From Scilla litardierei (taxonomy: Eukaryota > Streptophyta > Magnoliopsida > Asparagales > Asparagaceae): 64,000 bases of DNA. Each line of letters opens with the position of its first letter. Position 1 is the stretch's first letter. Both the position numbers and the translations under genes were made by a program. Below, piece by piece: positions 21,814 through 57,068 of the stretch. The DNA is taken from the NCBI GenBank assembly GCA_030789695.1, contig CM061142.1, positions 352,445,486-352,509,485 of the forward strand, read 5' to 3'. The notes beneath the pieces are model-generated. The model searched no databases and had not been told where the DNA came from. It worked only from the letters and a program-made list of their open reading frames with translations.

Positions 21814-21923
21814 TCTTTTGGACCCAATGACCTTGGGTACCATGATATGAAATTTTCTATGTTTAGGTACTCAAGGAAAAGAAAAAGAAAAGGAGCAACG
21901 AATTTAAATTTAGCTCCAAGGGG

Positions 21924-25769: not shown

Positions 25770-26873
25770 ATGGCAAGAACACGAATTCCGATCACTCCCT
25801 CTAGCCCCTCGCCGATGACCATAGAACCTACCCCTATGGTTCCCGATCAACCTACGCGAACCCCTCCTAGACGTCGTTCGAAAACCACCCAACCCTCTTC
25901 GTCTTCGCCTCCTCTTAAGCATAAGAGGACGGCGACTGCGAAACCCCGTGCCCGATCTTAGCCCAAGCCCAAGCCAGTAATTTTTCGTGCTCCCACTCCA
26001 CCCGGTGCTTCGGATTCTGACACCGAGTATTTTCCCGAGCATGAGACTCATAGGGAACCCACTCCTCATACCCATCCTGTGTCTAGCTCCCGACCACGTA
26101 CGTCTACCCGTAAGCCTAAGGGAAAGGCTCCGATGCCGGTAGGCGGTGTCGATATCTCGTTGTGTCGCGACGACCCTTTGTGTCTCGCGGCTTACAACTG
26201 TATCGAACATTGCCTGCTGCTTCTGGAGCATTTCGTCCAGATTAGTGACTTCATAGGGCTAGCAGATCTTCTGTCGTCTTCGGGTCTTATCGATTACCTT
26301 CGATATGATCCTAAGGTGAATCCTCACCCCTACCCTCGTTTAGTAAAACTATTCTATGCCAATAGGATCCGGGGTCAGTACGATGCGACCCACTCTGTTG
26401 AGACGACTGTTTTGGGGACTCCTATAGTCCTCACAGCAGAAATCTTAGGAGAGATTTTGGGTATCTCCTCGTCTGGCCTCCTCCCCTCAGACATTTCTGT
26501 TGATGATATTTCTTCCCTAGATCAGACCATCCTTTCTGAGATTTTCCATCAGATTCCTCCCACCATGATTGGCGTTCCCTCCAAATCCTTTAAGCCTAAT
26601 GCATGGGTCCTGAATTTGATTCTGAAGTCGTGCTTGCTTCCCAAGTACGGCTCCTCATCTCTACCATCCCAGCCCTTCTTGAAGTTGATCTATGCTATTT
26701 TCATGGGGAGCTCGATTAACTGAGCTCGCATTATACTCGATAAGATGGACTCTTTCGAGTGTATTCGCAAGTCCACGAAATCGGCTCATATCTCCTTCCT
26801 GTGATTGTTGACCCTTGTTTTTCGTCACTTCCGTGTCACACTTCCTCGTGACGATGAGCGTCCACTTGGTCCT
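25770..26873 (+). pseudogene. SIRE-2 extra ORF, first part (putative plant transposon protein type), interrupted by ATH-2
   Basis: One frame from the ATG at 25770. The N-terminus is Pro/Ser/Arg/Lys-rich with several basic clusters that look like nuclear localisation signals (RRRSK, KHKR, TRKPKGK). It then has a folded region (about 26150-26700: VDISLCRDDPLC, ANRIRGQYDATHS, ETTVLGTPIVLT, EILGEILGI) typical of the extra protein encoded downstream of pol in Sireviruses and annotated in plants as putative plant transposon protein. Stops at 25959, 26721 and about 26802. ATH-2 is inserted at 26873; the same frame resumes at 46347. There is no signal peptide or transmembrane helix, so an envelope role is not supported here. 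Confidence 0.7.
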
Positions 26874-27238
26874 TGATCGCTCCGGAATGTAACCCAAAAG
26901 TGCAACCGTGTAGTTTTACCGCAAGCGCACGGTGTAGCGGCGAGCGGGTTATCGAACACAGGGAGGACGAATGAAAGTGCTTGCTCCGAACAACCTGGCT
27001 ATTAAGAACGGAAAAGAGAGAATTTGCCTTTGGCGTTCCTGTCACAATCGTCAGACAAAGTACGAAGATATCAAATCAAATAAAGACGTCTAGGGAATGG
27101 GGAATTCCCGCCACTCACCGTATTTCGTCAATGTGGTTCATTGGTATCAAAATTGCTAGAATAAAATTTTGGATGAACTAGTTGCAACTGAATGTAATAC
27201 CTAGCTCACGCTCTCGCGCTGTTGCCGGTCTATAGCTA

Positions 27239-27545
27239 TCCTAGGTTCGGGTCCAATCTCTTGCAAACCCTAGCCTAGGGAAGCTAGCATTAGGATCAAC
27301 ATCATCGTTCAATCGCGCCCTGAGCCCACTTTCGTGCAAACTCGGGCCACGACCTAGGTTGGGATAGTTCCTACCCGTCCAATCTCTTGCAAACGGGTAT
27401 CGGCACGGAATTGCAACCGGAAACCCTAGTATCGGTCCAATCTCTTGTAAACCGATACTACGGAAATTCGATTCCAACCCAATTCGGATTTCTAGGGTTT
27501 CCTATCGAGTTGGGATCCAATCTCTTGCAAATCCCAATCAGTATG
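27239..27545 (-). repeat. Constant-loop hairpin array in ATH-2 3' LTR
   Basis: Same array as at 44888-45185 in the 5' LTR. Four loops are TCCAATCTCTTGCAAA or one base different and one is CCCACTTTCGTGCAAA. Each is flanked by self-complementary but different arms (for example TACCCG/CGGGTA and TAGTATCGG/CCGATACTA). Confidence 0.75.
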
Positions 27546-28019
27546 AATACCTAGCTATCCGTAGTAAATCGATCCCAATCTAAACCTAATAGCAATTCTA
27601 GCAATATTTCCACCAATTCATTACAAATCTGAAATTGGGCTCGTAGGGTTCATCCCCACGCCCCAAGGCGTGTAGACTACTCACAATTCATAGCACTAAT
27701 ACAAAAATAATCAATGAAAATCACAAGAGAATTCATCACAATATTGAGATAAGCAATAAAAATAGTATTTTTAGAGGGGAGAGACACAAACCAATGGAGT
27801 TGTTCCAATAATCCAACAAAAATCCACTTTTGTCTCCTCTCCAATCACAAGAATAAAAGTTAAAAAGTTAATCTAAAAAGCTGCAAAAATTCAAGAGAAA
27901 GGCTCTCTAACCTAGGGTAAAAACAGGGGTTAAATACCCCCCAAAATCGTCCAAAAAACTGTGACCAAAATGCCCCTGCGCAGCCTGAAATCCGAAATTT
28001 TCGCTACAGGCAGCGCGTC

Positions 28020-28405
28020 GCACTCGGCCGAGTGACAAAAGTCGCTCGGCCGAGTGAGAAACCCTGTAAATTTCCAGTAAGTCTGGGTCTTCGGGGGTCT
28101 TCACTTCGGGAGTCACTCGGCCGAGTGAGGTGTCGTCACTCGGCCGATGGCTTCTTAGTACTCGGGCGGTCGGCATTTGTCACTCGGCCGAGTGGGTCTT
28201 CTGAAGATCAGGCAGACGAAAAACAGTAAGTTGGCGATTTTTGACATGCGTCGTCTGAGTGCCACTCAGGCGGACGGGGTCTCGTCACTCGGCCGATGTG
28301 GCTTCCGTCGCTCGGCCGAATGCACACATAAAACGTGTCCGATCCGGTCGGCCGAGCGGTGTCTCGCTGGTCGGCCGAGTGACTCCTTCACTCGGCCGAG
28401 TGAGA
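28020..28405 (-). promoter_or_regulatory. Palindrome cluster (CACTCGGCCGAGTG) in ATH-2 3' LTR
   Basis: About ten copies, several the perfect 14-bp palindrome CACTCGGCCGAGTG, upstream (element sense) of the TATA-like box at 27927-27937. Same content as 45670-46055. Confidence 0.7.
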
Positions 28406-28698
28406 CACCAAAAATGCCCAAACAGCTTGTTTTGGCCTCCTCGTCGCTCCTGCGACGTTCTTTCTTCTTCCTCTCCTCTCCAATGGCAAAATACCCCTCG
28501 GGGAGGTTGTCGGTGACACTCTGGAGTAGGCGTATCTCGAGATCACTCCAAATCGCTCCAAATCACCTGAAATGGGACAAAAACAACAAATCGTGAAAAG
28601 CATCGCAATATCGTCGATATATCGTGAAAAACATGATTTGAGCGATCTAAATGGCATGCAAACATGCGGGGAAAAAAGTGTAAAATAAGGAGTGATCA

Positions 28699-32776: not shown

Positions 32777-33312
32777 TTGGGCCCCGAGCGCTCACCAAAA
32801 CCAATAAAAAAGCGGCGTGCGTAAAATAAAGGAAAGAATATACCATGACATGCCGCGAGTGCAAAGCTATGGAAGCGTGCGAAGACGACGCCTCCACGTA
32901 GCCCAAATCAGTCCCTGGAAGCTCCCTTGGGCTCCCCTAAGCTCCCAAATATAACCTGCGCATGAAACGGAGATATCAACGAGTAATATTCAAAACGTAT
33001 GGGGCATTAGGGGTATAATAGATAGAAATGGAAATTAATTTGGGTTTGGGGTTCGTTAGATACATGGATCCTCGAAAAATACACAAAAGAGGAGAAAATA
33101 GGCTAAAATGGGGTTACCGGAGTCGGCCGGAGCAGTGGCCGCCGGCGGCGACTCGGGCGAGGTGTGGCGGCGGCTCGACCGGCGGTGGGTGGCCGAGTGG
33201 CAGCGCAGCGTGAGGGATCAGGCGAGCGAGGGGGAGGTTCGGGCGCTGGGAAGTCTAAGAGTCGGGCCGTTGCGATTTGTTTCGTTTCGAAAAACGAGCC
33301 CGACCCTCGCCC
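32777..33312 (-). other. Leader between the internal TATA box and ATH-2 ORF2
   Basis: About 540 bp with no conserved ORF, GC-rich at 33110-33300. If the TATA at 33313-33322 is used, this is the 5' UTR of the ORF2 transcript. Confidence 0.5.
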
Positions 33313-33662
33313 CTATTTATAGTAAAAGTTACGACTCGGCCGAGTGACTGGGTCGCTCGACCGAGTGATCTTTAAGGAAAAATTCCTCCCCGCTACGCTT
33401 CGGCCGAGTGGCCTTGCCACCCTCGGCCGAGTGGAGTAAGTCCATTCGGCCGAGTGGCTCAAGCTACTTGGCAAGACTCGCCCTAGGAGCGTATCAGTTT
33501 TACTCGGCCGAGTGAACATATATACTCGGTCGAGTAGCAGTTATACTGAAATCAGGAAAATAAACATAGAGTTGGGTACAGCAGACTTCCCTCGTTCGTG
33601 AGCGGCTCGGCCGGATGAACTTGTGTGCTCGGCCGAGTGACTAGTATGCTCGGCCGAGTGAG
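33313..33662 (-). promoter_or_regulatory. Internal promoter of ATH-2 ORF2: TATA box plus palindrome cluster
   Basis: Minus strand CTATAAATAG (33313-33322) is a textbook TATA box. Directly upstream in the sense direction, 33332-33662 holds about ten copies of ACTCGGCCGAGT and close variants, the same motif as in the LTR of this element. The order cluster-TATA-ORF mimics the LTR promoter and points to separate transcription of ORF2. Confidence 0.65.
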
Positions 33663-34095
33663 CCTTGTTTTCTGCTGTTTGTCTTCGTTTGGGCTCTAAA
33701 CTCTGTTTTTCTTCCTCCAGTCGATTTCATCTTCCTCCTAAGCATCGAGCGCCTTCCTGGGGCGCTCCTCGTCGCCTCGTTCATCCTCTTAATGATGCGT
33801 ACCTCGTTCTCCAATCCTGTCATGGAAAATAGGACCCGTTATCACAAGATTTTTGGGCGAACGACTCAAAACACTAAAAATTTCTAAAACAAAAAAAAAG
33901 AAAAGTAAAAATAAAGCTATAACCGTCGGGTTGCCTCCCGAAAAGCGCTCGTTTAAGGTCGTGAGCTCGACCCCCTTTGATTTTCAATTAATGCGGGATG
34001 TTTGGTGCATATGAGATGCACCCGTCAAATTTTCCGGGGAGAACGCTTGGATTCGAAAGTTGCGGCGACGTGTTCTCCCTCGGTGGTCTCTCGTC
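33663..34095 (-). other. Spacer where pol should be in ATH-2
   Basis: No RT, RNase H or integrase sequence. It contains the gggttgcctcccga motif near 33928, also found in ATH-1 at about 5829. Protease therefore leads almost directly to the post-pol region, so the pol deletion is shared by the family. Confidence 0.6.
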
Positions 34096-36756
34096 TCAAA
34101 TAGTGTTGGGGGGTGGCTCCCCCAAGCTAGCGTTTGCTCCGGTCCTCGGCTTCACCGGTGACGCCGATTTCCGTGCCGGCGGGGCTTTCTTCGGAGACTT
34201 TAATTTCGAGAGCTTGCAGAGCTCTCGAATCCTTGCGACATCAGCGTCGCCTTCATCAATTTCAGCGGAGAAGTCGGGGGAATCATTTATCTTCTCATCT
34301 TGGCCTAAATCCGACCCTTCCTCGAAATCCTCCTTGAATAGAGCGCCGATCGAATGGGGGATCGCCTCCTCAATTACCTCGTCAAGGAGGTCCATATAGT
34401 CTAGCTCCTCGTGATAAGGCATGTGTTTCATTGCCTTAGGAATGTGAAGATCCACCTCGATGTTGCCGACGTTCAATGTTAGGGTACCTTCTCGCACGTC
34501 GACAATGACTCCGGCGGTGGCGAGGAACGGGCGTCCAAGTATCAATGACGTATCTCCCTCCTCTTTAACATCCATGATCACGAAGTCACATGGCAAACAT
34601 ATGCCCCCCGGGACTTGTAGCGGGATGTCCTCTGCGATCCCTACTGGCCTTGTGATCTGTCCATCGGCTAATTGTATACGCATGTCGGTGGGCTTCAATT
34701 TCGTCCCGGTGTTTAGCCTTAGGAACATGGAGAGAGGCATGAGGCTAACACTAGCCCCTAAATCCACCAACGCCTTTTGTAGAGGGACGCCGCCCAAGGT
34801 GCAAGGAATTAGAAAACTCCCCGGGTCTTTGAATTTAGCCGGCTCCTTCTCTCTCTTGGTGAACCAAGAGCCCTCCTCGGCGAGCATAATTTTCTCCTTC
34901 CTCTTTCTCCCCGAAATCAAATCCTTTAAAAATTTAGCATATGTGGGGATTTCCACGATGGCGTCGAGGAAGGGAATGTTGAGGCTAACCCCTCTCAGAT
35001 ACTCGAGAAATTTTGCTAGCCTTTTCTCCATTTTTGCTCTAGCAAGCCTCTGGGGGAATGGGACCGGTGGCATGAAGCGCCTCTCCTCAATCAATTGCTC
35101 CGCCCTAGATTTCTCCTTTTCTTGAGGCTCTTTCTCCCTCTCAACTTCAACTACCGGCTCAATTGGCTCTACATTCTCCTCCACGGGCTCCTCAGTAGGA
35201 ATCATGGCGGGGGTGGTGTCCTTCCTGCCTCTAGTTGTAACGGCAACCACGGCATTGATGTGGCCGGTGTTGCCCTGTGGGTTTTGCTCGGGTTAAGCCG
35301 GCAATTGTTGAGTATTTCGATTGAGCATTGCCAATTGCTCCGAGATTTGTGCCACAATGGTTGTAAGGGAGTCTTGGCCCGCCTTCAAGGAAGCATTGAC
35401 CTTCTTTTGCTCGACCATGAACTCCTCCACTCTAGCTTCGAAGTCGGATCGTTGTTGAGCTTGTGGAGGGTTTTGATTTCTCCACCCTTGATTGTATCCG
35501 GGCGGCCTATAGGGTGGAACTTGTTGCTTTGGTTGGAAATTTTGTTGTGAAGGCCCCCTCGGTGGATAGTGTTGTTGTTGGGGTGGTGGTGGTGGTCGAG
35601 CTTGTTGAGGTGGTTGTTGCGGCGGGTTTAAAGCTCCTTCATTGTTGGCATAAGAGAAACTGGGATGGTTTCTTGTGGCCGGATTGGCCCAATATCCTTG
35701 GTTCCCCGCGACATATTGAACTTGCTCAAAGGATCCCTCTCCTTGCTCTCCTCCCAAATACATAGCTTGAGATTGGTCTTGCCAATCACACATTTGATTC
35801 GTTGGTGCGGATGTGGAAGGGGTTCCTTGGGGCTCCGTGATAAACTTCTCCAGTCTCTCCACTACCTTGTGGAGAGAATCAAACTTGCTTGTCAGCTCCG
35901 CTACGGCCTTCGCCTCGTAGATGCTAGTTGGCTTCAAGGAGGACGTAGAGTGTCCTCGCTCATCGCCCCATTGTTGATTGTTTGAGGCCATCTCCTCAAT
36001 TAGGGCCGTAGCTTCTTCGGGAGTCTTTGATAAGATGGCACCATTCGCCGCGGCATCAATAATTTGCTTGGTCCCCGGTTGGAGACCATTGTAGAAGCTA
36101 TGAACTAGCTCCCAATCTTCAATGCTATGGTGCGGGCACTGGTGCTGCAGATCTTTGAAACGCTCCCAAGCCTCATAGAGCGTCTCTTGGGGTCCTTTCT
36201 TGAAGGACATAAGAGCGCTCCGAATCTTTACAGTCTTGGAGGGCGGATAGAACTTGTCAATGAATGCACTCGCCAACTCGTCCCATGTGGTAAAGACTCC
36301 CTCAGCTTGCGTCCTCAACCAATAAAGTGCCTTGTCCTTTAGTGTGAAGGGGAAGAGACGCAGTCTGATGGCATCGATGGAGACCCCCGTCATCTGAAAT
36401 GTGGCGCACTTCGACAAAAATAGCTGGATGTGGTAGTCGGGATTTTCATGGGCATTCCCATGAAATGGATCCTGCTGCATCAGAACCACTAGTCCAGTCT
36501 TCAGCTCAAAGTTCTTGTCAGCCGCCAACTCCGGTATGGCAATAGATGAAGTCGTAGAAGAGGTCTTAGGCCGGAGCCTATCTCGAATAGAAATAATCCT
36601 CGCCATTCTTGCCGCTAATTGTTCCGCAGTTTCCGGGTTGGTCATAAACCTCCCTTCCGGATCTTTTCTTCTCTCCGCTCTGATTCTCCACGCAGTACGC
36701 TCAATCTCGGGATCAAATAATATAGCTTCAGGGTCCGCCGTTGATCTCATGTTCAT
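34096..36756 (-). pseudogene. ATH-2 gag-protease, one in-frame TAA
   Basis: The 36756-35293 gag piece (487 aa) begins MNMRSTADPEAILFDPEIE. It contains the gypsy retrotransposon Gag domain at residues about 110-250 (core ALYWLRTQAEG and FKKGPQETLYEAWERF) and a Gln/Pro-rich C-terminus with no visible zinc knuckle. A TAA at 35293-35295 separates it from the protease part in the same frame (35250-34096). That part has the retroviral-type aspartic protease site ALVDLGASVSLMPLS and the downstream motifs CDFVIMDVKEEGD and LILGRPF. If the TAA is suppressed or recent, the two could be one polyprotein. TAT-C is inserted 7 bp upstream of the ATG. Confidence 0.8.
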
Positions 36757-36763
36757 GCACGGG

Positions 36764-37720
36764 TGATACGTCTATTTTGCAAAGGCCCAACAACATAGGC
36801 CCAGAAGCACAGACCACCGAAAGAAGCCCGAAAGATACGAGCCCGGATGCCCGACCGCCGATCGGAAGCCCATCTGCGCGGTCAGGCCCGCCCGGCAAAG
36901 CCCCGTAGGGAGCCCCCAAATATCGATCCGACCCGGCCCCAATAACGCACGAGTCACTCACCCACTCCAGCGATAACCGTTCCCCCGATCCCGTTGCCAC
37001 TTAATGGCTATTATGGGGAGGTGCTGGTATGGCGCAGGGAGCGGCGACGGGGGGGCGGATTGAGGGGGCACGATCGAGGGCAGACAAGCGACGTGGGTCG
37101 GGGGCAATCACGGCGGGAGGTCTATAAAAGGGTTAGAAGGACGACTGGACAAGGGACCGCATCTCAGGTATCTAAAACCTAAGGTACTCCATCAACGACC
37201 TTGTTCCCCCATTTCATCTCCTTCCTCCCCCGATCGCGCCGTGAGACGCCGTTCCGATCTCCTCTCGAGTCGAACCATCTCCGCCGGGCCTCCTCTTTCA
37301 GATCACTGTCTGACTTAGGCATCGGAGGGGATTTGGCCGGAACCAAGGTCCGGCCCCCTAACGAGCGTTCTCGTCTACGCAGGAGGACATCAGATCCACG
37401 GGCCGAGGCTTCCTCTCCGCCCCATGCCGACCACGTAACCAGCTGGACGAACGAGGCTACCCCTCGTCGTCCGACCGCCGAGGCCGAGCACGTCTGACCG
37501 AGGCCGAGCGTCTCAACCCGGGCCGAGGCTTCCCCTCGCCCAACCGACGACCGAGGACCCCGATTCGACCCAGCCGACGCGCTCCACGCAGTCTGCAACT
37601 CCGACTCGCGCCTCGTCTGCACCGACTCGACACACCCGAGGGACCCAAGCGGACCCCTTGACCACGTTGACCGGGTTGCCCACGGTCAACGCTTTTGTAG
37701 TAAGAAAACACTCTGAAACA
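36764..37720 (+). repeat. TAT-C 5' LTR
   Basis: 957 bp from TGATACGTCTATTTTGC to CTCTGAAACA, GC-rich. The TATA box is TATAAAAG at about 37123-37130. Repeated GAGGCCGAGC-like motifs occur near 37400-37530. Confidence 0.93.
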
Positions 37721-37722
37721 TC

Positions 37723-37740
37723 TGGCGCCGTCTGTGGGAA
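37723..37740 (+). other. TAT-C primer binding site
   Basis: TGGCGCCGTCTGTGGGAA, two bases after the LTR; this is the typical PBS of Tat-lineage plant gypsy elements and fixes the plus orientation. Confidence 0.88.
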
Positions 37741-37778
37741 CGACAAATTGTCCCACGAAGAAGCAAACCACACCCGTA

Positions 37779-39413
37779 ATGGCACGAGCCAGCAACGAAA
37801 GGAAACGCATGCCCCCCATCCCGGAGGAGGGGAATGGCGCTTCCAACGGCAACCTCGAAGGCACGCCCGTCAACAATCACCCCGCCCCCACAACTGAAGA
37901 GATTGGCGGGTCAGAACTGGCCACACAGGGACAACTCCGTGCCCTGGCCCAGGACACCAACGCGAACATCCAGACGCTGGTCGCGGCAGTACAGCAGCTC
38001 GTCAGCACTGCGCCAGCTAACGGGGGCGCATTGGGCGACGACCATCGTTGGGCGGGGGGTCCCCCGCTCTTACGATCCGCTGTGGTCGACGACCACGGGA
38101 ACCAAAGACCGAACGCGGAGCGTCGGTTCACGTTGTCCGGCTCCCGCCAGGCGAGATCACACGCCTCCTCCCCTCATCGTGAGAGGAGCCGAAGAGAAAC
38201 TGAAGGCATGGGGGACGAATCGGTGACCGCGTCGTCTCGTCGACCACGGTCACCCCACCGCAGGAGAAGCAATCAACACCACTCGAGAGACCGATCGCGG
38301 CGGAGCGGGAGCTCCCGCCGGAGGAGCCGGGAACGCCGGGTCTGCCCGTCCCCCAGTGTGGCGAGGGCCGTGGAGCCAGCCCCGCCGGCGCCTGTGCCCC
38401 CTCCACCACCGAACGAACCGGAGGCAGACGGGTGTCGAACCCCCGGAGGCATCCACGGAGACCGGTGCCCCCTATCACGGAGGATAACCGACACGCGGGT
38501 CCCCTCTCAATTCAAGCTCCCGGCGCTGGGGAAGTACGACGGGATAGGGGACCCGGGAAACCACGTGATGGACTACGTGGGGGACATGTCCTTCCAAGGA
38601 GCCGACGATGACCTGCTCTGCCGAGGCTTCTATTCTACTCTCAGGGGAGCGGCGAGGACCTGGTACCGCAGCCTACCCAGCCGCTCCATCAACAGCTTCG
38701 AGGAACTCACCCAGCTGTTCTGTAAACAGTTCATGGCAGGGAGACAGGTAAAGCCTGATGCTGAACATCTGTTTAACATAGTGCAGGGCCCAGCCGAGCC
38801 GCTCCGACAGTTCATGTGCCGCTTCAACGCGGAAAGGCTGAACGTGAACAGCCCCCCCGACCTGGTTGTCCAAACGGCCCTTAAGAAAGGGCTACGCCAT
38901 AGAGGCCTTAAGAAATCTCTTCACAACGATCCCCCGAAGGACCTCCCAGGGATCATGGCGAGGGCCGAGCGCTTCATGTTGACCGAGGAGACCTTGGCCA
39001 TTGAGGCAGGAAAGGCCCCTCGGGGGACCAAGCGCGGCGACAGCGGGCGAGGCAGCCCCGAGGGGTACCGGACCGAGAAGAGGCCGAGAAACAGGCAGCG
39101 AGGAGAGGGTACGAGGGACGCCACCCCAGACGCCGTCCTCGCTCAAGTACAGAAGGAAGAGCGCGTCGATCGCCCCCCACCGAAAGCAAAAAGAGGTGGG
39201 AAGAATGGGTAGAAGTACTGCAAGTACCACAAGGACAATGGCCACGACACTGAAGACTGCTGGCACTTAAAGAAGGACATTGAGAAGCTGATGAGCCGGG
39301 GGCACGCCAGGAGTTTAGCCGACGAGCCGGCCCACGGAGAAGGGACCTCCATGCAGCCGGACAAGGGGAAGAAGATCAACACCGTCCAAGGACCCCTCCG
39401 CATCATAGAGTGA
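37779..39413 (+). pseudogene. TAT-C gag, TAG before the zinc-knuckle-like tail
   Basis: Gag of a Tat-lineage element. The ATG at 37779 is preferred because the upstream in-frame ATG at 37734 overlaps the PBS. The N-terminal third is charged and Arg/Ser-rich. Residues about 250-390 form the retrotransposon Gag domain (FKLPALGKYDGIGDP, GAARTWYRSLPSRSI, FNAERLNV). A TAG at 39210-39212 interrupts the frame. After it the same frame gives the C/H/H/C zinc-knuckle-like segment (CKYHKDNGHDTEDCWHL) and a stop at 39411. Whether the TAG is read through is unknown. No protease follows. Confidence 0.8.
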
Positions 39414-39640: not shown

Positions 39641-40449
39641 GGGGGAGCTTCGCCCTCGCCGACCAACTCCTGCGCTCATAAGTCTGGGGGCAATTCCCCC
39701 CACCAGCGCGGACGCCGACCGGTCTTGAGCCGAAGAGCTTCGCCCTCGCCGACCAACTCCTGCGCTCACAAGTCTGGGGGCAATTCCCCCAGCCAGCGCG
39801 GACGCCGACCGGTCCTAATTCGAGGAGCTTTGCCCTCGCCGACCGACTCCTGCGCTCATGAGTCTGGGGGCAATTCCCCCAGCCGGCGCGGACGCCGACT
39901 GGTCCTAAGCCGAGGAGCTTTGCCCTCGCCGACCAACTCCTGCGCTCACAAGTCTGGGGGCAATTCCCCCAGCCAGCGCGGACGCCGACCGGTCCTAAGT
40001 CAAGGAGCTTTGCCCTCGTCGACCGACTCCTGCGCTCATGAGTCTGGGGGCAATTCCCCCAGCCGGCGCGGACGCTGACTGGTCCTAAGCCGAGGAGCTT
40101 TGCCATCACCGACCAACTCCTGCGCTCATAAGTCTGGGGGCAATTCCCCCAGCCAGCGAGGACACCGACCGGTCCTAAGCCGAGGAGCTTTGCCCTCGCC
40201 GACCAACTCCTGCGCTCGAAGGTCTGGGGGCAATTCCTCCCGGCCAGCGCAGACGCCGACCGGTCCTAAGCCGAGGAGCTTTGCCCTCGTCGACCGACTC
40301 CTGCGCTCGTAAGTCTGGGGCAACTCCCCAGCCAGCACGGACGCCGACCGGTCCTAAGCCGAGGAGCTTCACCCTCGCCGACCGACTCCACCGCTCGGGA
40401 ATTTGGAGGCAATTCCCCCAGCCAGCTCGGGCGTCAACCAGTCCTAGGC
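39641..40449 (+). repeat. Tandem array in TAT-C, 9 units of 90 bp
   Basis: Each unit begins gagctttgccctcgccgac and contains tctgggggcaattcccccagcc. Units start at about 39641, 39731, 39821, 39911, 40001, 40091, 40181, 40271 and 40360. Because 90 is a multiple of three, long frames stay open on both strands, but these are not genes. The unit carries a self-complementary tgggggcaattccccca core. Tandem arrays between gag/pol and the LTR are common in Tat-lineage elements. Confidence 0.92.
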
Positions 40450-40835
40450 CGAGGACGAGGCAACAAAGCAAAATACGCGAAAAGTCCGAGTAAGTCAATT
40501 TCATTTATAACAGTTAACCAAGGTACAAAAGTATGTCTTATCTACAGGGAATCGAAGACTGAGGGAACCTCTCAGCAAATAATCCACTCTCGACGGACAA
40601 CAAAGTTCGTCACCAACAGAAACTAGGGCGACACCGACAGAGCGAAATTTGTTGGCTAAGGACCCAAAGTTGCCGGCCTCAGCGAACATCCATGCAACCA
40701 GCAATTATTGGCTCTGAAGCAGGGAGTCGATAGCGAAGCCGAAGGAGATGGCCGGGGCAGGGGTCCATTTCAAGTAGACTGGCCCAAACCGAAGCGGATG
40801 CTAAAAAATTGGAGGATAAGGCCAGAGGGGACGAC
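40450..40835. other. Short spacer after the 90-bp array
   Basis: About 390 bp between the array and the inferred stop of the antisense gene. It holds no credible gene; the annotated open frame here is the shifted tail of exon 3. Confidence 0.4.
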
Positions 40836-43359: not shown

Positions 43360-44322
43360 TGATACGTCTATTTTGCAAAGGCCCAACAACATAGGCCCAG
43401 AAGCACAGCCCACCGAAAGAAGCCCGAAAGATACGAGCCTGGATGCCAGACCGCCGATCGGAAGCCCATCTGCGCGGTCAGGCCCGCCCGGCAAAGCCCC
43501 GTAGGGAGCCCCCAAATATCGAACCGACCCGGCCCCGATAACGCACGAGTCACTCACCCACTCCAGCGATAACCGTTCCCCCGATCCTGTTGCCACTTAA
43601 TGGCTGTTATGGGGAGGTGCTGGTATGGCGCAGGGAGCGGTGACGGGGGGGGCGGGGGCGGATTGAGGGGGCACGATCGAGGGCAGACGAGCGACGTGGG
43701 TCGGGGGCAATCAGGCGGGAGGTCTATAAAAGGGTTAGAAGGACGACTGGACAAGGGACCGCATCTCAGGTATCTAAAACCTAAGGTACTCCATCAACGA
43801 CCTTGTTCCCCCATTTCATCTCCTTCCTCCCCCACTCGCGCCGTGAGACGCCGTTCCGATCTCCTCTCGAGTCGAACCGTCTCCGCCGGGCCTCCTCTTT
43901 CAGATCACTGTCTGACTTAGGCATCGGAGGGGATTTGGCCGGAACCAAGGTCCGGCCCCCTAACGAGCGTTCTCGTCTACGCAGGAGGACATCAGATCCA
44001 CGGGCCGAGGCTTCCTCTCCGCCCCACGCCGACCACGTAACCAGCTGGACGAATGAGGCTACCCCTCGTCGTCCGACCGCCGAGGCCGAGCACGTCCGAC
44101 CGAGGCCGAGCGTCTCAACCCGGGCCGAGGCTTCCCCTCGCCCAACCGACGACCGAGGACCCCGATTCGACCCAGCCGACGCGCTCCACGCAGTCTGCAA
44201 CTCCGACTCGCGCCTCGTCTGCACCGACTCGACACACCCGAGGGACCCAAGCGGGCCCCTTGACCATGTTGACCGGGTTGCCCACGGTCAACGCTTTTGT
44301 AGTGAGAAAACACTCTGAAACA
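43360..44322 (+). repeat. TAT-C 3' LTR
   Basis: 963 bp, same ends as the 5' LTR, with scattered substitutions and a longer G run near 43645-43660. TATA at about 43724-43731. The PPT atgggggcaat precedes it. Confidence 0.93.
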
Positions 44323-44437: not shown

Positions 44438-44457
44438 CCTCCCCGGCAACGGCGCCA
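44438..44457 (-). other. ATH-2 primer binding site
   Basis: Minus strand TGGCGCCGTTGCCGGGGAGG, six bases inside the 5' LTR end; Athila-type PBS. Confidence 0.8.
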
Positions 44458-44887
44458 AAAACTTGATCGCTCCGGAATGTAAACGGCAAAAGAAAATGTT
44501 GCTAAATTGTCATCAAATCATCGAAATTGTCTACTTACCTGTCACACTCGCGACCGTGTAGTTTTACCGCAAGCGCACGGTGTAGCGGCGAGCGGGTTAT
44601 CGAACACAGGGAGGACGAATGAAAGTGCTTGCTCTGAACAACCTGGCTATTAAGAACGGAAAAGAGAGAATTTGCCTTTGGCGATCCTGTCACAATCGTC
44701 AGACAAAGTACGAAGATATCAAATCAAATAAAGACGCCTAGGGAATGGGGAATTCCCGCCACTCACCGTATTTTGTCAATGTGGTTCATTGGTATCAAAA
44801 TTGCTAGAATAAAATTTTGGATGAACTAGTTGCAACTGAATGTAATACCTAGCTCACGCTCTCTCGCTGTTGCCGGTCTATAGCTAT

Positions 44888-45185
44888 CCTAGGTTCGGGT
44901 CCAATCTCTTGCAAACCCTAGCCTAGGGAAGCTAGCATTAGGATCAACATCATCGTTCAATCGCGCCCCGAGCCCACTCTCGTGCAAACTCGGGCCACGA
45001 CCTAGGTTGGGATAGTTCCTACCTGTCCAATCTCTTGCAAACGGGTATCGGCACGGAATTGCAACCGGAAACCCTAGTATCGGTCCAATCTCTTGCAAAC
45101 CGATACTACGGAAATTCGATTCCACCCCAATTCGGATTTCTAGGGTTTCCTATCGAGTTGGGATCCAATCTCTTGCAAATCCCAA
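44888..45185 (-). repeat. Constant-loop hairpin array in ATH-2 5' LTR (R/U5)
   Basis: Five hairpins, each with a 16-nt loop: 44900-44915, 44973-44988, 45026-45041, 45084-45099, 45164-45179. Four loops are identical (TCCAATCTCTTGCAAA) and one is CCCACTCTCGTGCAAA. Stems differ completely but pair: CCTAGGTTCGGG with CCCTAGCCTAGG (10 of 12), CCCGAG/CTCGGG, TACCTG/CGGGTA, TAGTATCGG/CCGATACTA (9 bp) and TTGGGA/TCCCAA. They lie about 390-690 nt downstream of the TATA box, so they are transcribed. Confidence 0.78.
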
Positions 45186-45669
45186 TCAGTATGAATACCT
45201 AGCTATCCGTAGTAAATCGATCCCAATCTAACCCTAATAGCAATTCTAGCAATATTTTCACCAATTCATTACAAATCTGAAATTGGGCTCGTAGGGTTCA
45301 TCCACACGCCCCAAGGCGTGTAGACTACTCACAATTCATAGCACAAATACAAAAATAATCAATGAGAATCACAAGAGAATTCATCACAATATTGAGATAA
45401 GCAATAGAAATAGTATTTTTAGAGGGGAGAGACACAAACCAATGGAGTTCTTCCAATAATCCAACAAAAATCCACTTTTGTCTCCTCTCCAATCACAAGA
45501 ATAAAAGCTAAAAAGTTAATCTAAAAAGCTGCAAAAATTCAAGAGAAAAGGCTCTCTAACCTAGGGTAAAAAGAGGGGTTAAATACCCCCCAAAATCGTC
45601 CAAAAAACTGTGACCAAAATGCCCCTGCGCAGCTTGAAATCTGAAATTTTCGCTACAGGCAGCGCGTCG

Positions 45670-46055
45670 CACTCGGCCGAGTGACAAAAGTCGCTCGGCC
45701 GAGTGAGAAACCCTGTAAATTTCCAGTAAGTCTGGGTCTTCGGGGGTCTTCACTTCGGGAGTCTTTCGGTCGAGTGAGTTGTCGTCACTCGGCCGATGGC
45801 TTCTTAGTACTCGGGCGGTCGGCATTTGTCACTCAGCCGAGTGGGTCTTCTGAAGCTCAGGCAGACGAAAAACAGTAAGTTGGCGATTTTTGACATGCGT
45901 CGTCTGAGTGCCACTCAGGCGGACGGGGTCTCGTCACTCGGCCGATGTGGCTTCCGTCGCTCGGCCGAATGCACACATAAAACGTGTCCGATCCGGTCGG
46001 CCGAGCGGTGTCTCGCTGGTCGGCCGAGTGACTCCTTCACTCGGCCGAGTGAGAC
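45670..46055 (-). promoter_or_regulatory. Palindrome cluster and TATA-like box in ATH-2 5' LTR
   Basis: About ten copies of CACTCGGCCGAGTG and close variants, including perfect copies at 45670-45683 and 46038-46051. The TATA-like GTATTTAACC is at 45577-45586. Inferred U3 enhancer. Confidence 0.7.
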
Positions 46056-46346
46056 ACCAAAAATGCCCAAACAGCTTGTTTTGGCCTCCTCGTCGCTCCT
46101 GCGACGTTCTTTCTTCTTCATCTCCTCTCCAATGGCAAAATACCCCTCGGGGAGGTTGTCGGTGACACTCTGGAGTAGGCGTATCTCGAGATCACTCCAA
46201 ATCGCTCCAAATCACCTGAAATGCGACAAAAACAACAAATCGTGAAAAGCATCGCAATATCGTCGATATATCGTGAAAAACATGATTTGAGTGATCTAAA
46301 TGGCATGCAAACATGCGGGAAAAAAGTGTAAAATAAGGAGTGATCA

Positions 46347-46873
46347 GTCCTTCCCTGAACGCGACGGCCGTCAAGAAGTCTCTTGCGGCGCTCCGTCACG
46401 TTAAGAGGACGACACCTTCAGCGTCTGCCTCTGCCTCTGCCTCAGCTGCTCCCTCTACCACTCTTGCAGATGTCGTTCATTCGATCCGTCGTTTGGAGTC
46501 TCGTCAGGCTCATTCTGAGGAGATTCTCTGCCGTATCGCTCGACACCTTGATATTGAGGTCCCTCCGTCTTTCTCTGACGAGGATGAGTTGGATGAGGAG
46601 GACATTGAGGAGCTTTGTCGTATTTCCACTCGTGCCCCCGAGGGCACTTCTGGTGCTGCTGCTGCTGCTTCGTCTGCTGGTGCCCCCGAGAGCACACCTG
46701 TTGCCACCGCTCCTGCGGTGGATGCTCCGACTGGTGCTCCCGAGGCCACTACTGTTGCTGCTCCAGAGATTGCCACTTCTGTCGTCGCTCCCGCTAACAT
46801 TCCAGATGTTCCTGTGACCACCACTTCTCCTGTAGAGCCTTCTACTGCTGCAGATCCTGCCGCTTCCTCTTGA
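46347..46873 (+). pseudogene. SIRE-2 extra ORF, C-terminal part
   Basis: Continues the frame broken at 26873 once the ATH-2 insertion and one TSD copy are discounted. It begins basic (AVKKSLAALRHVKR). A short amphipathic/coiled-coil-like segment follows (VVHSIRRLESRQAHSEEILCRIARHL), then a strongly acidic patch (DEDELDEEDIEEL) and a long Ala/Pro/Thr/Val-rich tail ending at a TGA (46871-46873). A basic N-terminus, a folded domain and an acidic patch resemble a nuclear regulator more than an envelope; this is inference. Confidence 0.7.
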
Positions 46874-47845: not shown

Positions 47846-49719
47846 TGTTGGATATTGGACTCCCCGGATTTGGTTTTGGATGATGAACAAACATAAATAT
47901 ATCGTGAACTAACACTTTGTGAGCGCAGTTATGGAGATCGTCGCCAAATTCATATGAATATCAATTACGACGTCTCAAGACTTCTCAAAGCACGTGATCG
48001 TATGCCTAAAGCTTCGTTGAAGCTTATGGACCAATTTAGAAGTCATAAAGATTCGATTGAAGCTATTAAAGACGGTATCATCAAGTTTTATTTATAGTCT
48101 TTAAGCTTCTTTCGTAGAATGTTAAGCCTTGAGTAGGTCCTACGGTTTAAATCTTCATGACGCTCATATCTTAGCTCTATGATCTTAGTAGAAGTCCATA
48201 CAATCTTTCCCGAAGCTTCGCGCTTCGATTCGCGACTTCTTGTGCATGTTAGTTGGTTCAAGAAGAAGAACTGACCGACTAGATGGTGATCTAGTCGGTC
48301 GGCAAAGCTTCTTGGACCGACTAGTTTTTGTCAGTCATTTCCAAGCTCTTTACTGTTTACAGTTAGTCGGTCTAAGTTGACTCACCGACCGACTAGTTTG
48401 TGAACTAGTCGGTCAGTGATGCTTCTGTGACCGACTAGTTGAGCTTTCCCTGTACATGCACATTTGAGCCTAAGCTACTGTTTATCATTAGTCGGTCTAT
48501 GCTCATTTGGTGACCGACTAGTTGATGAACTAGTCGGTCAACTTTCCTTCTTGGACCGACTAGTTTAGCTTTACTGTTCATGCCATTTTTCACCTAACTT
48601 ACTGTTTATCGTTAGTCGGTCTATGCTCATTTGACGACCGACTAGTTGGTGAATTAGTCGGTCAACATTTGTTCTTGGACCGACTAAGTCAATTCGTGCT
48701 CAGACTTCAGTTTTATCTGTTAGTCGGTCTCAGTTGAGTAACCGACCGACTAGTTGTGAAACTAGTCGGTCAGCTACTCTTCTTGGACCGACTAGTTCCT
48801 TTTGTCTGTGCTTCAATCTTTTGGTTGTTCCTCTTTTAGTCGGTATACGTTAATTGACCGACCGACTAGTTGATGAACTAGTCGGTCGGTGGTTGTTCTT
48901 TTACCGACTAGTTGGGTTCAGAAAAGAGCCGTTGGAGCATTAATTGAAACGTTTTTCTTTCTCTCTCTCCTCTATCCTATAAATACTTGATGGGCTGCAT
49001 TCATTGCAGTCAAGGCTGATATTATTGCAAGTTTAGAGATCAAGAGAAATCATTCCAAGCTCATTCAAAGCTCTTTCATTCTATTCAATAATCTCTCCTC
49101 ACTCTTACTTCCAAAGAGAGATTCATTGAGTGTGAAGCCTTCCAAGCCAAGTGCTTGATTCTAGGTCACCAACATCCCCATAGCTCTCCACCGCTGATCT
49201 ACATCTTGGAGTTAGGGTTTGGTGCCACCTCTTCTTCCTCAAAATCATCTTTGCCCTAATTCGTAAGCATTACTCAAGGCATAGGTATTTTGTCGGTAAG
49301 AAGTTTCTTATTTCATTTCAATTTCATATTGTAAGTTTCACTCTCGGTTGTGAGAGTGTGATTGTGATCCCGGGTTGTGGGAGTCACAAATTACTTTGTG
49401 TATGATTTGACTTGTGAAGGTTTTTCACAAGTATTTCATAGTGGAAATCTTGAGTTAGGATTTCTAACTCAAGTATCCGGAGGGGATCCGGGTGGTTGGG
49501 ACGTAGGATCACCGGGAACAAGTCGGGGAGACTTGGATGGATCCGAACCCAGTAATATCTATTGTTAGCATTGTTAATTTTGTTGTTGTCTTCAATTTAA
49601 GCTTCCGCAAATTGTTTTGGTAGTTGTTTGCACGATAATTAGGAATTATACTCCTTGTTATTTTTAAAGTACTATTCCCCCCCCTCTAGTACTTGTGCAG
49701 TAGCTTGTAGGGCATTACA
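47846..49719 (+). repeat. SIRE-2 3' LTR
   Basis: 1874 bp, TGTTGG...ATTACA, with the same six-unit palindrome cassette (about 48270-48910) and a TATA box TATAAATA at 48978-48985. It differs from 14277-16151 by scattered substitutions and indels, and its flank is ATH-1 gag. Inference: it is not the original partner of the 5' LTR. Confidence 0.9.
48270..48912 (+). promoter_or_regulatory. Palindrome cassette in SIRE-2 3' LTR
   Basis: Six units with inner hairpins GACCGACTAGTT/AACTAGTCGGTC and outer AGTCGGTC/GACCGACTA pairs, ending about 65 bp before the TATA box, as in 14700-15345. Confidence 0.75.
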
Positions 49720-50011: not shown

Positions 50012-50031
50012 CCTTCTCGGCAACGGCGCCA
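50012..50031 (-). other. ATH-1 primer binding site
   Basis: Minus strand TGGCGCCGTTGCCGAGAAGG, next to the end of the 5' LTR; Athila type with two or three changes from ATH-2. Confidence 0.75.
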
Positions 50032-50393
50032 AAAACTTGGTCGCTCCCGAATATACACCCAGAAAACAATGTAGCTTTACCGCAATTGCACGGTTAAGTG
50101 GCAAGTGAGTATCGAATCACAGGGAGGACGAATGACGGTACTATATTTCAATTACTAAGCTATTGGGTGGAAAAATCGTTTTAGAATGGATGGTGTAACG
50201 ATCGTTAGAGTATTAATGCAAATTCAATTTAATAAGGTCGTCTAGGGCTATGGAATCCCCACTATGGATTTTCAAGTTATGAAAGTGAGTTATGAACAAC
50301 CATGCAATCAAACTTGGTTAAAGGTGAACTTACCGCAACTCTATGGAGAACCGACTCATGTTGTACGCTTTTGTATATCTATTGCAATCAAAA

Positions 50394-50684
50394 TTAGAGC
50401 CTCGCTGTCGCACAAGCCTAACTCAAACCACTAGCATTAAGATCGACAATTATGTCCAATCCCAACTCAAAGCTCGCTGTCGCGCAACTTGAGTTCAGAT
50501 CTACATCGTGATAGTACGTACTCGTTCACTGTCGTGCAACGAGTATGAGTATAAGAGAACAATAAAAATGCTAGCTTTGGTCGATGTTGCACACCAAATC
50601 TAGGAAATTTCGATTGTAATCCTAAATCGAATATCTAGTGCTTTCCTTGGATCAAGATCCTCTGTCGAGCTCATGAGATCCAAG
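50394..50684 (-). repeat. Constant-loop hairpin array in ATH-1 5' LTR (R/U5)
   Basis: Five inverted repeats with different stems. 50394-50421: TTAG(A)GC/GCCTAA. 50464-50495: AACTCAA/TTGAGTT. 50519-50545: TACTCG/CGAGTA. 50576-50598: TTTGGT/ACCAAA. 50646-50684: CTTGGATC/GATCCAAG. The first three loops share the core CTCGCTGTCGCGCAA or TTCACTGTCGTGCAA, clearly related to the ATH-2 variant loop CCCACTCTCGTGCAAA. The last two are degraded. Position relative to TATA (about 400-700 nt downstream) matches ATH-2. Confidence 0.72.
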
Positions 50685-51179
50685 ACAAATCCATATCTAT
50701 CCATAGTAAATTAATCAAGATCTAACCTTTCTAACAAGTCTAATATCATGGCAATTCAATAGATCTTACAATTCAAACATTAAATCCATAGGGTTCATCC
50801 CTTTGCCCTAGAGCAAAGGAACTACTCGCAAATCATATTAAAAATCGATAGAGATACAAGATCAACAATAGAATTCATCATGTAAGCAAGATTCAACAAG
50901 AGATATGGCATAAAAATCAAAATTTGCAAGAGATCAAGACAAACGAATGTCGCCACGAAGCTTCAAAATAGAAAAATAAGATCCAATGTTCAATCTCTCG
51001 CCAATACAAAAGCTTAACTGGAGCTAAAAACTCAAGAAAAATTATTCTAAGAAGTCTATCTGGTCTCCCTAGGGCTGAAGATAAAACTGGGCTTAAATAC
51101 ATGCCCAAAAGAACCAAAAAATACAGACCAAACTGCCCATGCGCCGCCAGAAACCCTAGTTTTCCGACTGGGCGTCTGC

Positions 51180-51482
51180 GCTACTCGGCCGAGTGGGAAT
51201 CTTACTCGTCCGTGTGAGAATTCTACTCGGCCAAGTATGACAATCTGTAGATCATCCCAAAAAATAGAGAAGTTGGCCTGGCTTTCTGCAAAATCTTGCC
51301 CTCCACTCGGGCGAGTGGAGTTCTTACTCGGCCGAGTGGAAGTCACCACTTGGCTGAGTACAATGTGGTACTCAAGCTGGCAGATGTCATCATGTCAGCT
51401 ATGCTCGACCAAGTAAGCTGCTTCACTCGGGCGAGTGAGCTGCTTCACTCGGGCGAGTGAGCTGCTTCACTCGGCCAAGTGG
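51180..51482 (-). promoter_or_regulatory. Palindrome cluster in ATH-1 5' LTR
   Basis: About ten ACTCGGCCGAGT-like copies, including a short tandem of cactcgggcgagtgagctgctt near 51424-51470. TATA-like box at 51092-51100. Confidence 0.65.
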
Positions 51483-51786
51483 CCTGTTTCAGAGCTCTTA
51501 TCTTCTCCTCCTCGCTTCCTCGTCGATTCCTTCGATGTTCTTCTTCTCCCACTCATCCTCCAGCGTCGTTACCTCTTCGATATGATCATGGGCAACGCTC
51601 CGGCATGCGTGCAAGACCTCTAGGCTCCAAATTGCTCCCGATTTCTCCATATCTCCTGAAATCAGACGAAAACAAGAAATAGTGAAAAGTGTCGAAATGT
51701 CGTCAAATAATCGCGAAAATCGCGATACGAGCAATCGAAATGGCATGCAAAAATGCAGAAATAAAGTGTAAAATATGAGCCTATCA

Positions 51787-55265: not shown

Positions 55266-57068
55266 CTAACGCCACGCAGATGCCACAGTTAACACGCGAC
55301 CCATCCAACCGAACCCGAGCCCGACGGATTCTTCTCTGTATGTGAACCCTGGGTTCGCTTTCATCGAACCAAACCGCAACTTCACCGGTTCGGATACTTC
55401 CGGTCCGAAATGAACCGGCTTGAACCCGGCCATGCTCATGCGGGCCCGCCACTTGCCCAGGACTTCCGGCCTCTCGACCCGGTCCGCTCCTTCGCGGGCG
55501 ACGGAGTTCGCGGCCTTGCGCGCGAGGCCCGACTCGATCTGGAGCCGGTCCGAGTGATCCCGGTTCATCGTCACGTCGAGCGAGTCGAGGATGGAACCGT
55601 AATAGCTGCAGGCCTCGGTGAACCGGGCGGCGAACGGTGCGGTGTTGGCGTTCATCTCTTGCTCGACCATCGTGACAACGTTTGGCTCCAGAGACTTCAC
55701 TCGCCGTAGCAATTCATCTCGTGGGTTCGCCGGAGAGACGCTCTCGTCGGCGATTCTCGAAAGGACGAAGGCGAAATTGACCGCCAATGCTTCACCAGGC
55801 TCGCAGCCGAGCGCTGCACGGTCCAGCTCCGTCGTCCTCCTGTTCACGATGTTGAACCGGACAGTGACGCCAAACCGCTCGGCGAGCCGGGTGATCTTGT
55901 CGCCGATGATTTTAAGGTTGTTGACGGTGCTGAGCGTGTTGAAAGGGAAACTTGGGTCGCATACCGCTGTGATTTTAATGAATGGAGACGACTGGATCAG
56001 GGATGAACTTTGACGGGACCACTCGGCGACGGCGTTGATCAAAGAAGCGTATTGCCATCCCTGGCCCAAATCGAAATCAACGATGTGGATCATCGATTGA
56101 TCTCTTGTGGCGTCAATAATGGCGAAATTGGCGGCCATGAGGCCGAGCTTGAAGCAAGGAGAGATCTCGTACAGCATCTGCGTAGAGTTCTGGTGCTCAG
56201 GGCTGCATAGATCGGTGATAGGTGAGGTTCCCGTCACTCGAGGTGGGTTGATGCGCGTGACGAGAGCGGATACCATGATCGCCGCTAGCCTCTGATCTGG
56301 ATCGCCTCGCGGATTCGTCGTCCGCTTGAGGACTGCGATGTTGGCCGCGGCGGCGTCGAGATTTCCTTCGGAGATGGCGGCCGCGGTGTGGAGAAGCAGC
56401 TGCTTCGTCGGAGCTGAGGGAGCAGTTGGGGTGCAAGATGCCGAAGAAGAGGTGGAGGACGACGTTGACGTCGTCGGAGAAGAGGAAAGAGGATTCTGAG
56501 GCGGTGGTGGAGACGGCGACGGGGAGATTAGCTGCTGCATCGCCTCGCCCCACTCGCTCGTGGTTACCGCAGAGCCGGTGACGCTGACGTCAGCGTCGTC
56601 GTCAGCGTCGTCCAAAAGGAGCTGCCTCTCTAATTCTTGGAGCTGGCTCTTGATCGCACAGGGCTTCTTCTTGAATTCAACAGGCGGAGCGACGAAAAAG
56701 AAATCTGCACCAGGCTTCAAAATTTGATGTTGTTGTTGATGCTGCTGATGCTGCAGCTGAAGGCCTCTAAGGAAATTGAAATTGACTCCAGAGTTGGAGG
56801 AGGAGAGCGAGGAGGAAGACGAGGATGCAAGATCAATCGGAGAAATAGGAGACATCGGCGAGTTGAGATGCGTCGCCATCGTCCGCTGCTTCACCGATCG
56901 TAGATACAGCGTGTGCTGTATCTGCTGCTGCCGCTCGAGCTCCGTTAACGACCGCTTCAGGAGGCCGTTTCCTCCGTCAGATCGCTGCTGGTCAGGGAAC
57001 TGGAAGGAGGATCTGACGCCGTAACCGTACGAGCCGCGCAGATCGCGGCCGGGGTAACCGGCAGCCAT
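55266..57068 (-). CDS. SCL8: GRAS-domain transcription regulator, SCARECROW-LIKE 8-like
   Basis: An intact, intronless 600-codon ORF, typical of GRAS genes. The first 220 residues are low-complexity (Gln, Ser and Pro runs) with LTELERQQQ, LYLRSVK and SPISPIDL segments characteristic of SCL8. GRAS domain: leucine-heptad I about 221-280, VHIID as IHIVDFDLGQGWQYA (327-341), heptad II about 385-420, PFYRE region about 428-500, and SAW about 518-600 with RVER (530-533) and the end SAWR. GRAS proteins act in the nucleus, usually through partner transcription factors. The start is the first ATG, preceded by a C/T-rich strand (GA-rich in sense). It is GC-rich, unlike its neighbours, and the only clearly intact host gene here. 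The subfamily assignment rests on the N-terminal motifs. Confidence 0.93.
   Translation of the reverse strand: MAAGYPGRDLRGSYGYGVRSSFQFPDQQRSDGGNGLLKRSLTELERQQQIQHTLYLRSVKQRTMATHLNSPMSPISPIDLASSSSSSLSSSNSGVNFNFLRGLQLQHQQHQQQHQILKPGADFFFVAPPVEFKKKPCAIKSQLQELERQLLLDDADDDADVSVTGSAVTTSEWGEAMQQLISPSPSPPPPQNPLSSSPTTSTSSSTSSSASCTPTAPSAPTKQLLLHTAAAISEGNLDAAAANIAVLKRTTNPRGDPDQRLAAIMVSALVTRINPPRVTGTSPITDLCSPEHQNSTQMLYEISPCFKLGLMAANFAIIDATRDQSMIHIVDFDLGQGWQYASLINAVAEWSRQSSSLIQSSPFIKITAVCDPSFPFNTLSTVNNLKIIGDKITRLAERFGVTVRFNIVNRRTTELDRAALGCEPGEALAVNFAFVLSRIADESVSPANPRDELLRRVKSLEPNVVTMVEQEMNANTAPFAARFTEACSYYGSILDSLDVTMNRDHSDRLQIESGLARKAANSVAREGADRVERPEVLGKWRARMSMAGFKPVHFGPEVSEPVKLRFGSMKANPGFTYREESVGLGFGWMGRVLTVASAWR

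Follow-up and report, generated by a model that had tools for sequence, protein, structure and literature searches.

A covarying array of hairpins with a conserved tip in the predicted leader of an Athila-type retrotransposon of Scilla litardierei

The predicted RNA leader of an Athila-type Ty3/gypsy retrotransposon present in the analysed window, a stretch of 64,000 nucleotides of Scilla litardierei DNA, carries an array of five, probably six, hairpins whose pairing on the RNA-sense strand is conserved although the letters of their stems change. This array structure is well supported. The explanation of its function that we favour, and to which we would give an even chance, is that the hairpins are copies of one RNA recognition element, probably for the element's own Gag and its packaging or dimerisation. 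The carrier (element A) lies on the minus strand of the window, and the LTR with the array under study is its 5' LTR. Its main features are the following:

44464..46346, minus strand: 5' LTR of element A, with TGATCA...TGATCA ends and GTCCT at 46347-46351
26874..28698, minus strand: 3' LTR of element A, with GTCCT at 26869-26873
44445..44457, minus strand: PBS TGGCGCCGTTGCC, starting at 44457, directly past the 5' LTR end
45579..45585, minus strand: TATA-like TATTTAA, a candidate promoter box with a counterpart in element B too
35296..36762, minus strand: Gag frame of element A, PF03732, E 1.5e-19
31715-32776, minus strand: ATHILA ORF-1 family, PF03078, E 2.6e-07, which exceeds the curated cut-off

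The two LTRs are about 98% identical (98.2% over 1798 bp; 1789 of 1828 aligned bases) and the target duplication GTCCT is present on both outer ends. Between them, on the minus strand, lie the gag and a protease domain (PF13650), while the PBS, which we take to be of the tRNA-Asp type, follows the 5' LTR; together with the PF03078 match these features characterise an Athila-type element. Since the PBS, gag, protease and ATHILA ORF-1 are all on the minus strand, this is the RNA strand. No match to reverse transcriptase or integrase was obtained in the four reading frames scanned (28700-36762), and between 34099 and 32791 there are only stretches shorter than 100 aa, which is why element A may be non-autonomous. 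A single stop codon at 35293-35295 divides the adjoining in-phase Gag and protease frames. The region between the PBS and gag holds a nested LTR-like pair of 97% identity (36764-37720 and 43360-44322), and within this nested element there is a PF03732 gag match on the plus strand (37734-39212) and a tandem repeat of about 90 bp (39644-40455).

On the RNA strand the hairpins in the leader are as follows, with fold z calculated against dinucleotide shuffles:

45304..45321, minus strand: H0, an upstream hairpin, ACACGCC/GGCGUGU, its stem wholly replaced in element B
45158..45185, minus strand: H1, stem UUGGGA/UCCCAA, core UUUG CAA GAGA UUG GA, fold z -1.6
45075..45108, minus strand: H2, stem UAGUAUCGG/CCGAUACUA, core as in H1, fold z -5.2
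45020..45047, minus strand: H3, stem UACCCG/CAGGUA with one C-A mismatch, core as in H1 and H2
44967..44994, minus strand: H4, stem CCCGAG/CUCGGG, core UUUG CAC GAGA GUG GG, fold z -6.1
44888..44927, minus strand: H5, two-part stem CCUAGG..GGG/CCC..CCUAGG, core UUUG CAA GAGA UUG GA, fold z -2.6
44847..44877, minus strand: H6, a probable sixth GAGA hairpin, outer stem ACCGGC...GCU-A-GGU, longer internal loop, weaker
27240..27537, minus strand: the five-hairpin array in the 3' LTR of element A

The initial annotation described a 16-mer present four times with one variant, and we find TCCAATCTCTTGCAAA at 44900, 45026, 45084 and 45164 and a variant with three mismatches at 44973. It placed the array in both LTRs, which is in accordance with the copies of TCCAATCTCTTGCAAA in the 3' LTR at 27252, 27378 and 27516 and a one-mismatch copy at 27436. 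Matches to the 16-mer with up to three mismatches number 12 in the window, nine of them in the two arrays, compared to 0.93 expected and at most four in 100 shuffles. The position given for the array, about 390-690 nt past the TATA box and before the PBS, is also correct, as TATTTAA lies 394 nt ahead of it and the PBS after it. Two points were in error. The quoted loop sequence is the complement of the RNA, as the transcribed strand is the minus one according to the PBS, gag, protease and ATHILA ORF; for the same reasons, and because the wobbles are G-U on the minus strand, a plus-strand reading of the hairpins was rejected. Furthermore, the supposed open loop of 16 nt is closed by RNA folding into a bulge, three base pairs and a GAGA tetraloop atop the variable stem: in the constant 16-mer, which as RNA is UUUGCAAGAGAUUGGA, CAA pairs with UUG around GAGA, UG is bulged, and an outer U-U stands opposite purines. 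In H4, the variant copy, both sides of the inner stem have changed (CAC-GAGA-GUG) and the stem is retained. H3 of the 5' LTR, with its C-A mismatch, folds otherwise when taken alone, and H3 of the 3' LTR (27372-27399) has a perfect stem and folds (z -1.8). H6 has a mutated inner stem in the 5' LTR copy, whereas that of the 3' LTR copy is intact.

A second Athila-type array in the window, in the 5' LTR of element B, allows a comparison of hairpins that have diverged considerably:

50038..51786, minus strand: 5' LTR of element B, with a PBS-like site at 50031
50646..50684, minus strand: H1 of element B, stem CUUGGAUC/GAUCCAAG, tip CUC GACA GAG, longer inner loop
50571..50603, minus strand: H2 of element B, stem CUAG.UUUGG/CCAAA.CUAG, core decayed, no inner stem
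50519..50545, minus strand: H3 of element B, stem UACUCG/CGAGUA, core UUG CAC GACA GUG AA, covariance model E 0.034
50464..50495, minus strand: H4 of element B, stem AACUCAAG/CUUUGAGUU, core UUG CGC GACA GCG AG, fold z -4.3
50394..50421, minus strand: H5 of element B, stem UUAGGC/GCUCUAA, core UUG UGC GACA GCG AG

A partial LTR of element B at 1-874 is without the array. The LTRs of A and B share 1007 of 1679 aligned bases (about 60%), and the five hairpins of B are found at homologous places, with alignable spacers between them and with stems differing from those of A; folding did not recognise H6 as such in B. Four of the B hairpins (all but H2) have a GACA tetraloop and three (H3-H5) a single bulged G. 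Over ten folded hairpins, five each from A and B (H3 of A being the 3' LTR copy), fold z ranges from -1.5 to -6.1, with H4 and H2 of element A lowest, so that several single hairpins are unremarkable by energy alone. The claim that arms pair only within their own copy was right as a tendency and too strict as a rule: cognate arms form on average 5.2 of 6 pairs, non-cognate ones 2.54, and none of 20000 permutations of these ten hairpins reaches the cognate total, but as many as 5 of 6 pairs also form in 11 of the 90 non-cognate combinations. In a plain MAFFT alignment, B has both partners changed in 17 pairs of the A structure, of which 13 remain paired, compared to 4.3 in shuffles (none of 500 reach 13) and at most 3 with slid partners; further pair types between A and B were not above shuffles (131/500). 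An alignment of the A and B hairpins in 28 columns misregisters the B stems by one base and was excluded from the pair counts. Identity between A and B is 67/118 in stems, 82/138 in spacers and 13/18 in tetraloops, which indicates that stems are conserved as pairs and not as letters, while conservation of the bulged G and of the U-U beside the inner stem equals that of the loop (8 of 8 aligned A/B hairpins). Compensation of pairs changed on both sides was 17 of 25 in the array and 20 of 46 in the rest of the LTR.

To extend this comparison we used further copies from the same assembly (3.68 Gb, 7266 contigs), in which the exact 16-mer occurs 69,281 + 70,207 = 139,488 times and its reversed control not once; an 18-letter pattern of the LTR end gives 17,750 + 17,670 copies, again with none for the control. 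All arrays thus come from one genome. Loci were sampled as 20 stretches at 16-mers, 20 evenly placed 10-kb stretches from two contigs, six further stretches at 16-mers, and 19 LTR ends chosen with preference for places without the 16-mer among the matches listed. The evenly placed 200 kb held two arrays, L202 of type A and L194, which is 77% identical to B. The 19 LTR ends divided into four A-like, two C-like, one L194-like (type D), 11 of a separate family E and one fitting none. The covariation set of 23 arrays consists of the 5' and 3' LTR of A, element B and the 20 stretches around 16-mers; L194, L202, L208-L213 and the 19 LTR-end loci, fetched later or of another type, were left out of this count, and a set of 38 arrays adds L194, L202 and the array-bearing later loci.

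Covariation was the check that the initial annotation had proposed for its structure, and the array passes it. Among the 23 arrays 96.0% of 1395 cells pair, compared to 91.4% in shuffles, and there are 20 double-change pairs and 72 double-change cells compared to 8.8 and 23.6, each value being reached in none of 500 shuffles; slid structures leave at most 53.1% of cells paired. A tree was built from unpaired columns; of the 24 double changes on it with a pair as starting state, 20 lead to another pair. Single changes starting from a pair retain the pairing in 37 cases and break it in 36, as expected of many dead copies. Neutral evolution simulated along the same tree yields 75 +- 3% paired cells, 7.0 +- 2.6 double-change pairs and 16 +- 9 such cells, and none of 300 runs matches the observed values. 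With all 38 arrays, 2186 of 2303 cells are paired, and double-change cells are compensated in 136 cases and uncompensated in 37. The earlier interpretation of changing stems with kept pairing as selection for structure is thus borne out by the A/B comparison (13/17), the 23 arrays, the neutral simulation and the strand of the wobbles. The array is not the only part of the leader with this property. Covarying hairpins are also situated outside it, at 45304-45321 and about 44700-44760: the hairpin spanning H0 has 38 of 59 both-changed cells paired, and another, near the LTR end, 45 of 46. This indicates that the array does not stand alone but belongs to a structured leader, in which it is the most regular portion; conserved RNA structure may extend over the leader as a whole.

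Arms of this kind are inverted repeats on either strand and other palindromes are present in the LTR, so one could suppose that the array acts as DNA, by cruciforms or inverted protein sites. The wobbles make this very unlikely. When six constant U-G positions are set aside, the minus strand has 87 G-U cells and 16 C-A cells, the latter corresponding to G-U on the plus strand, and over the whole structure these 16 C-A cells compare with at least 39 (mean 95) in unconstrained simulations. Such an excess of G-U over C-A on the minus strand points to selection on the RNA of that strand and not on DNA.

The tips themselves vary little. In the 38 arrays a GAGA tip is found in 29 copies of H1, 26 of H2, 32 of H3, 34 of H4 and 33 of H5, and no motif was recognised in 5, 10, 1, 1 and 3 of them, respectively. 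This constancy is inflated in A and C, as the 16-mer led us to most of these arrays; it was not the basis on which B, L194, L202 or the 19 LTR-end loci were chosen. L194 has the tips GACG (H3) and GGGA, and L224 the tips AACG and GAGG, while three other cores of each are without the motif as aligned. The core alleles CAA-GAGA-UUG and CAC-GAGA-GUG occur in 6 and 31 of the 38 arrays at H4 and in 25 and 8 at H5, and these swaps among copies make conversion between hairpins likely, besides selection. It is conceivable in principle that the whole array arose as a side effect of repeats duplicating or converting one another, pairing not being under selection, and near-identical cores and swapping alleles are what this would predict. 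We nevertheless regard it as the least probable of the explanations, barely credible, because the flanking stems differ, the copies of the TCCAATCTCTTGCAAA repeat (direct-repeat family D1) are irregularly spaced (126, 58 and 80) and double-change pairing is far above the neutral simulation. The case that the initial annotation had itself named as fatal, a tandem repeat with shared flanks, fails on the same irregular spacing and differing arms, and on pairing that survives double changes. Conversion may be how identical tips are maintained; as the source of the pairing it is refuted.

The motif is also specific in searches. A strict descriptor gave six matches in the window, all on the minus strand in arrays, where they account for 6 of the 15 hairpins of A and B, and a looser one nine, six in arrays and three elsewhere, compared to 0 to 5 (mean 1.75) in 20 shuffled windows. 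On 159 public control loci (1.26 Mb) the strict descriptor matched twice, in both cases at the 16-mer by which the loci had been selected. A covariance model built from the five A hairpins was run on the window, the 20 evenly placed stretches and the 19 LTR ends (277 kb) and gave 49 matches at E up to 1, of which 46, the five training hairpins included, are in arrays and all in RNA sense. It reached only H3 of element B and none of the hairpins of L194 or L224. The other three matches (L189, L203 and L206; E 0.5) are in another repeat with a different context, a dispersed one containing GCACGAGAGTGGAGC, close to the H4 core (L189 9066-9093, L203 308-335, L206 480-507). Rfam gave no match at gathering score in the window and one sub-threshold match in the LTR, outside the array. 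Exact matches to the 16-mer in public viral contigs (29 stretches) and genome contigs (at least 118) occur once per listed stretch, which is about chance, and were not accepted as relatives. Other Athila patterns gave 5, 7 and 0 stretches in viral contigs, and these too were set aside, parts of two of the five looking bacterial or phage; a Gag search of the viral contigs found none.

A hairpin of similar plan occurs in part of the 11 loci of family E (L214-L220, L222, L225, L227 and L228), which have the conserved LTR end in common with the LTRs of the arrays and whose leaders went unmatched in BLAST with the leaders of A, B, C and D as queries. Six of the 11 contain one sense hairpin with a bulged G, three pairs and a GGGA or GGAA tip, its inner stem varying between CGC/GCG and CGU/ACG. 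The motif of bulged G, three pairs and GNNA was found in no antisense instance in the 19 LTR ends, and shuffle means are 0.015 to 0.065 per locus. On account of these six loci, the device may be general to the lineage. When nine of the 11 loci were aligned and folded, 12 of 195 pairs had double changes (at most 4 when slid), which is a lead only, the structure having been taken from the same alignment.

From these results we propose that the replaceable outer stem would present the conserved tip, i.e. U-U, bulged G (UG in A), three base pairs and GAGA (A, C) or GACA (B), in the transcript, where the array should be present judging from its place after the TATA-like box and before the PBS. The tip would be read by a trans-acting protein, with several copies acting together; several equal tips on replaceable stems between the TATA-like box and the PBS suit repeated protein sites. 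The likeliest reader would be the element's own Gag, selecting or dimerising full-length RNA for particles. We place Gag first among the candidates since the tips vary more from one coexisting element to another than inside a single element: near-uniform tips within an element type, different between A/C and B, are expected if the sites follow their own Gag. Speaking against Gag, the Gag frame of element A is without a CCHC knuckle (the pattern CX2CX4HX4C was looked for in the frame), and the motif is missing from the H2 core of B and from several D-type cores. The Gag of element A differs in this from that of Diaspora, an element of the Athila lineage whose Gag is described, in the available part of the source, as having a CCHC knuckle.

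The missing knuckle would be no difficulty if the hairpins bind a host RNA-binding protein, or serve translation (entry, shunting), export or stability of the element's RNA, and the leader position and the structural evidence fit this equally. We find it doubtful, although not far-fetched, because tips that differ within one genome, GAGA in A/C and GACA in B, are awkward for a single host reader, with B being one copy. Contacts between RNAs are another matter. GAGA, GGGA and GGAA are GNRA loops, and GNRA-type loops could dock into helices or kiss, folding the leader or joining two genomic RNAs with no dedicated protein; in the available text on gammaretroviruses GACG loops are said to join in loop-loop contacts (PMC5874298, PMC516450). 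The GACA of B is not a GNRA loop, and the bulged G and U-U, kept like the loop in the 8 hairpins of 8, suit protein contact, so we consider this explanation unlikely. Recognition by the element's own Gag, in turn, could be extended to a multivalent, lineage-specific packaging code, in which five or six equal tips act together, tetraloop and bulge changed together as Gag specificity diverged, and co-resident families package their own RNA. The pairing of GAGA with the UG bulge in A and C, and of GACA with the G bulge in B, agrees with such a code, which we put forward tentatively, as possible but rather improbable.

In form the Athila hairpin resembles the operator of the RNA phage MS2, in which a bulged purine (A) lies under a short upper stem and tetraloop and is bound by coat protein; the MS2 operator is single, with an A as bulge and another loop. 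Gammaretroviral leaders contain hairpins with a GACG tetraloop (SL-C and SL-D), also present in alpharetroviruses and Maedi-Visna virus, which according to the accessible parts of two papers act in packaging and dimer stability (PMC5874298, PMC516450). The Athila hairpins may be likened to SL-C and SL-D in being short, in having a GNNR-type tetraloop and in their predicted place in the leader of an LTR element. However, gammaretroviruses have two hairpins and the Athila array five or six, which have a bulged G and a 3-bp inner stem under GAGA or GACA and are sited before the PBS inside the LTR; the tetraloop is GAGA in A and C and GACA in B, and GACG in one D-type hairpin (H3 of L194). The parallel is one of plan, with no homology claimed, and the Athila array may have a similar function. 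The initial statement that there is no described counterpart thus stands for plant LTRs, where we found no array described in open-licence full texts, of Athila or any other, and needs qualifying for the retroviral GACG hairpins, which the accessible text shows to resemble it in plan (PMC5874298, PMC516450).

For the barley copia element BARE packaging and dimerisation signals have been proposed (PMC3735527, available part). BARE and the Athila array both concern proposed cis signals of plant LTR retrotransposons, BARE belonging to another superfamily; a hairpin array does not appear in the available text of that paper, in which “hairpin” and “stem” have 0 occurrences. The main text, as available, of a 2025 review of the plant LTR retrotransposon life cycle likewise has 0 occurrences of “packaging signal” and “dimeri”. 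Judging from these partial sources, cis packaging signals of plant LTR retrotransposons are little characterised. The array is a compact, covarying and very abundant candidate signal whose tip can be altered without touching the stem, and it makes Gag-RNA recognition in plants, as well as self versus non-self packaging among co-resident elements, directly testable.

Sirevirus LTRs, according to the available text on them, have clustered palindromic repeats that lie upstream of the TATA box and are built on an invariable CGG-CCG core (PMC2829016). The U3 of both Athila LTRs (45660-46060 and 51170-51490) has many palindromes of the CTCGGCCGAG type (CGG-CCG), also upstream of the TATA-like box; these Sirevirus-like palindromes are separate from the hairpin array. 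Elsewhere in the window we noted a repeat pair of 93% identity (14277-16151 and 47846-49719) and matches to copia-type gag, integrase and reverse transcriptase at 16179-24095. An intact-looking GRAS-domain gene of the SCL8 type lies at 55266-57068 on the minus strand, and its closest named matches (among the best 120 of 439), which place the host with the monocots, are from Musa, Iris, orchids and palms, with 55-62% identity.
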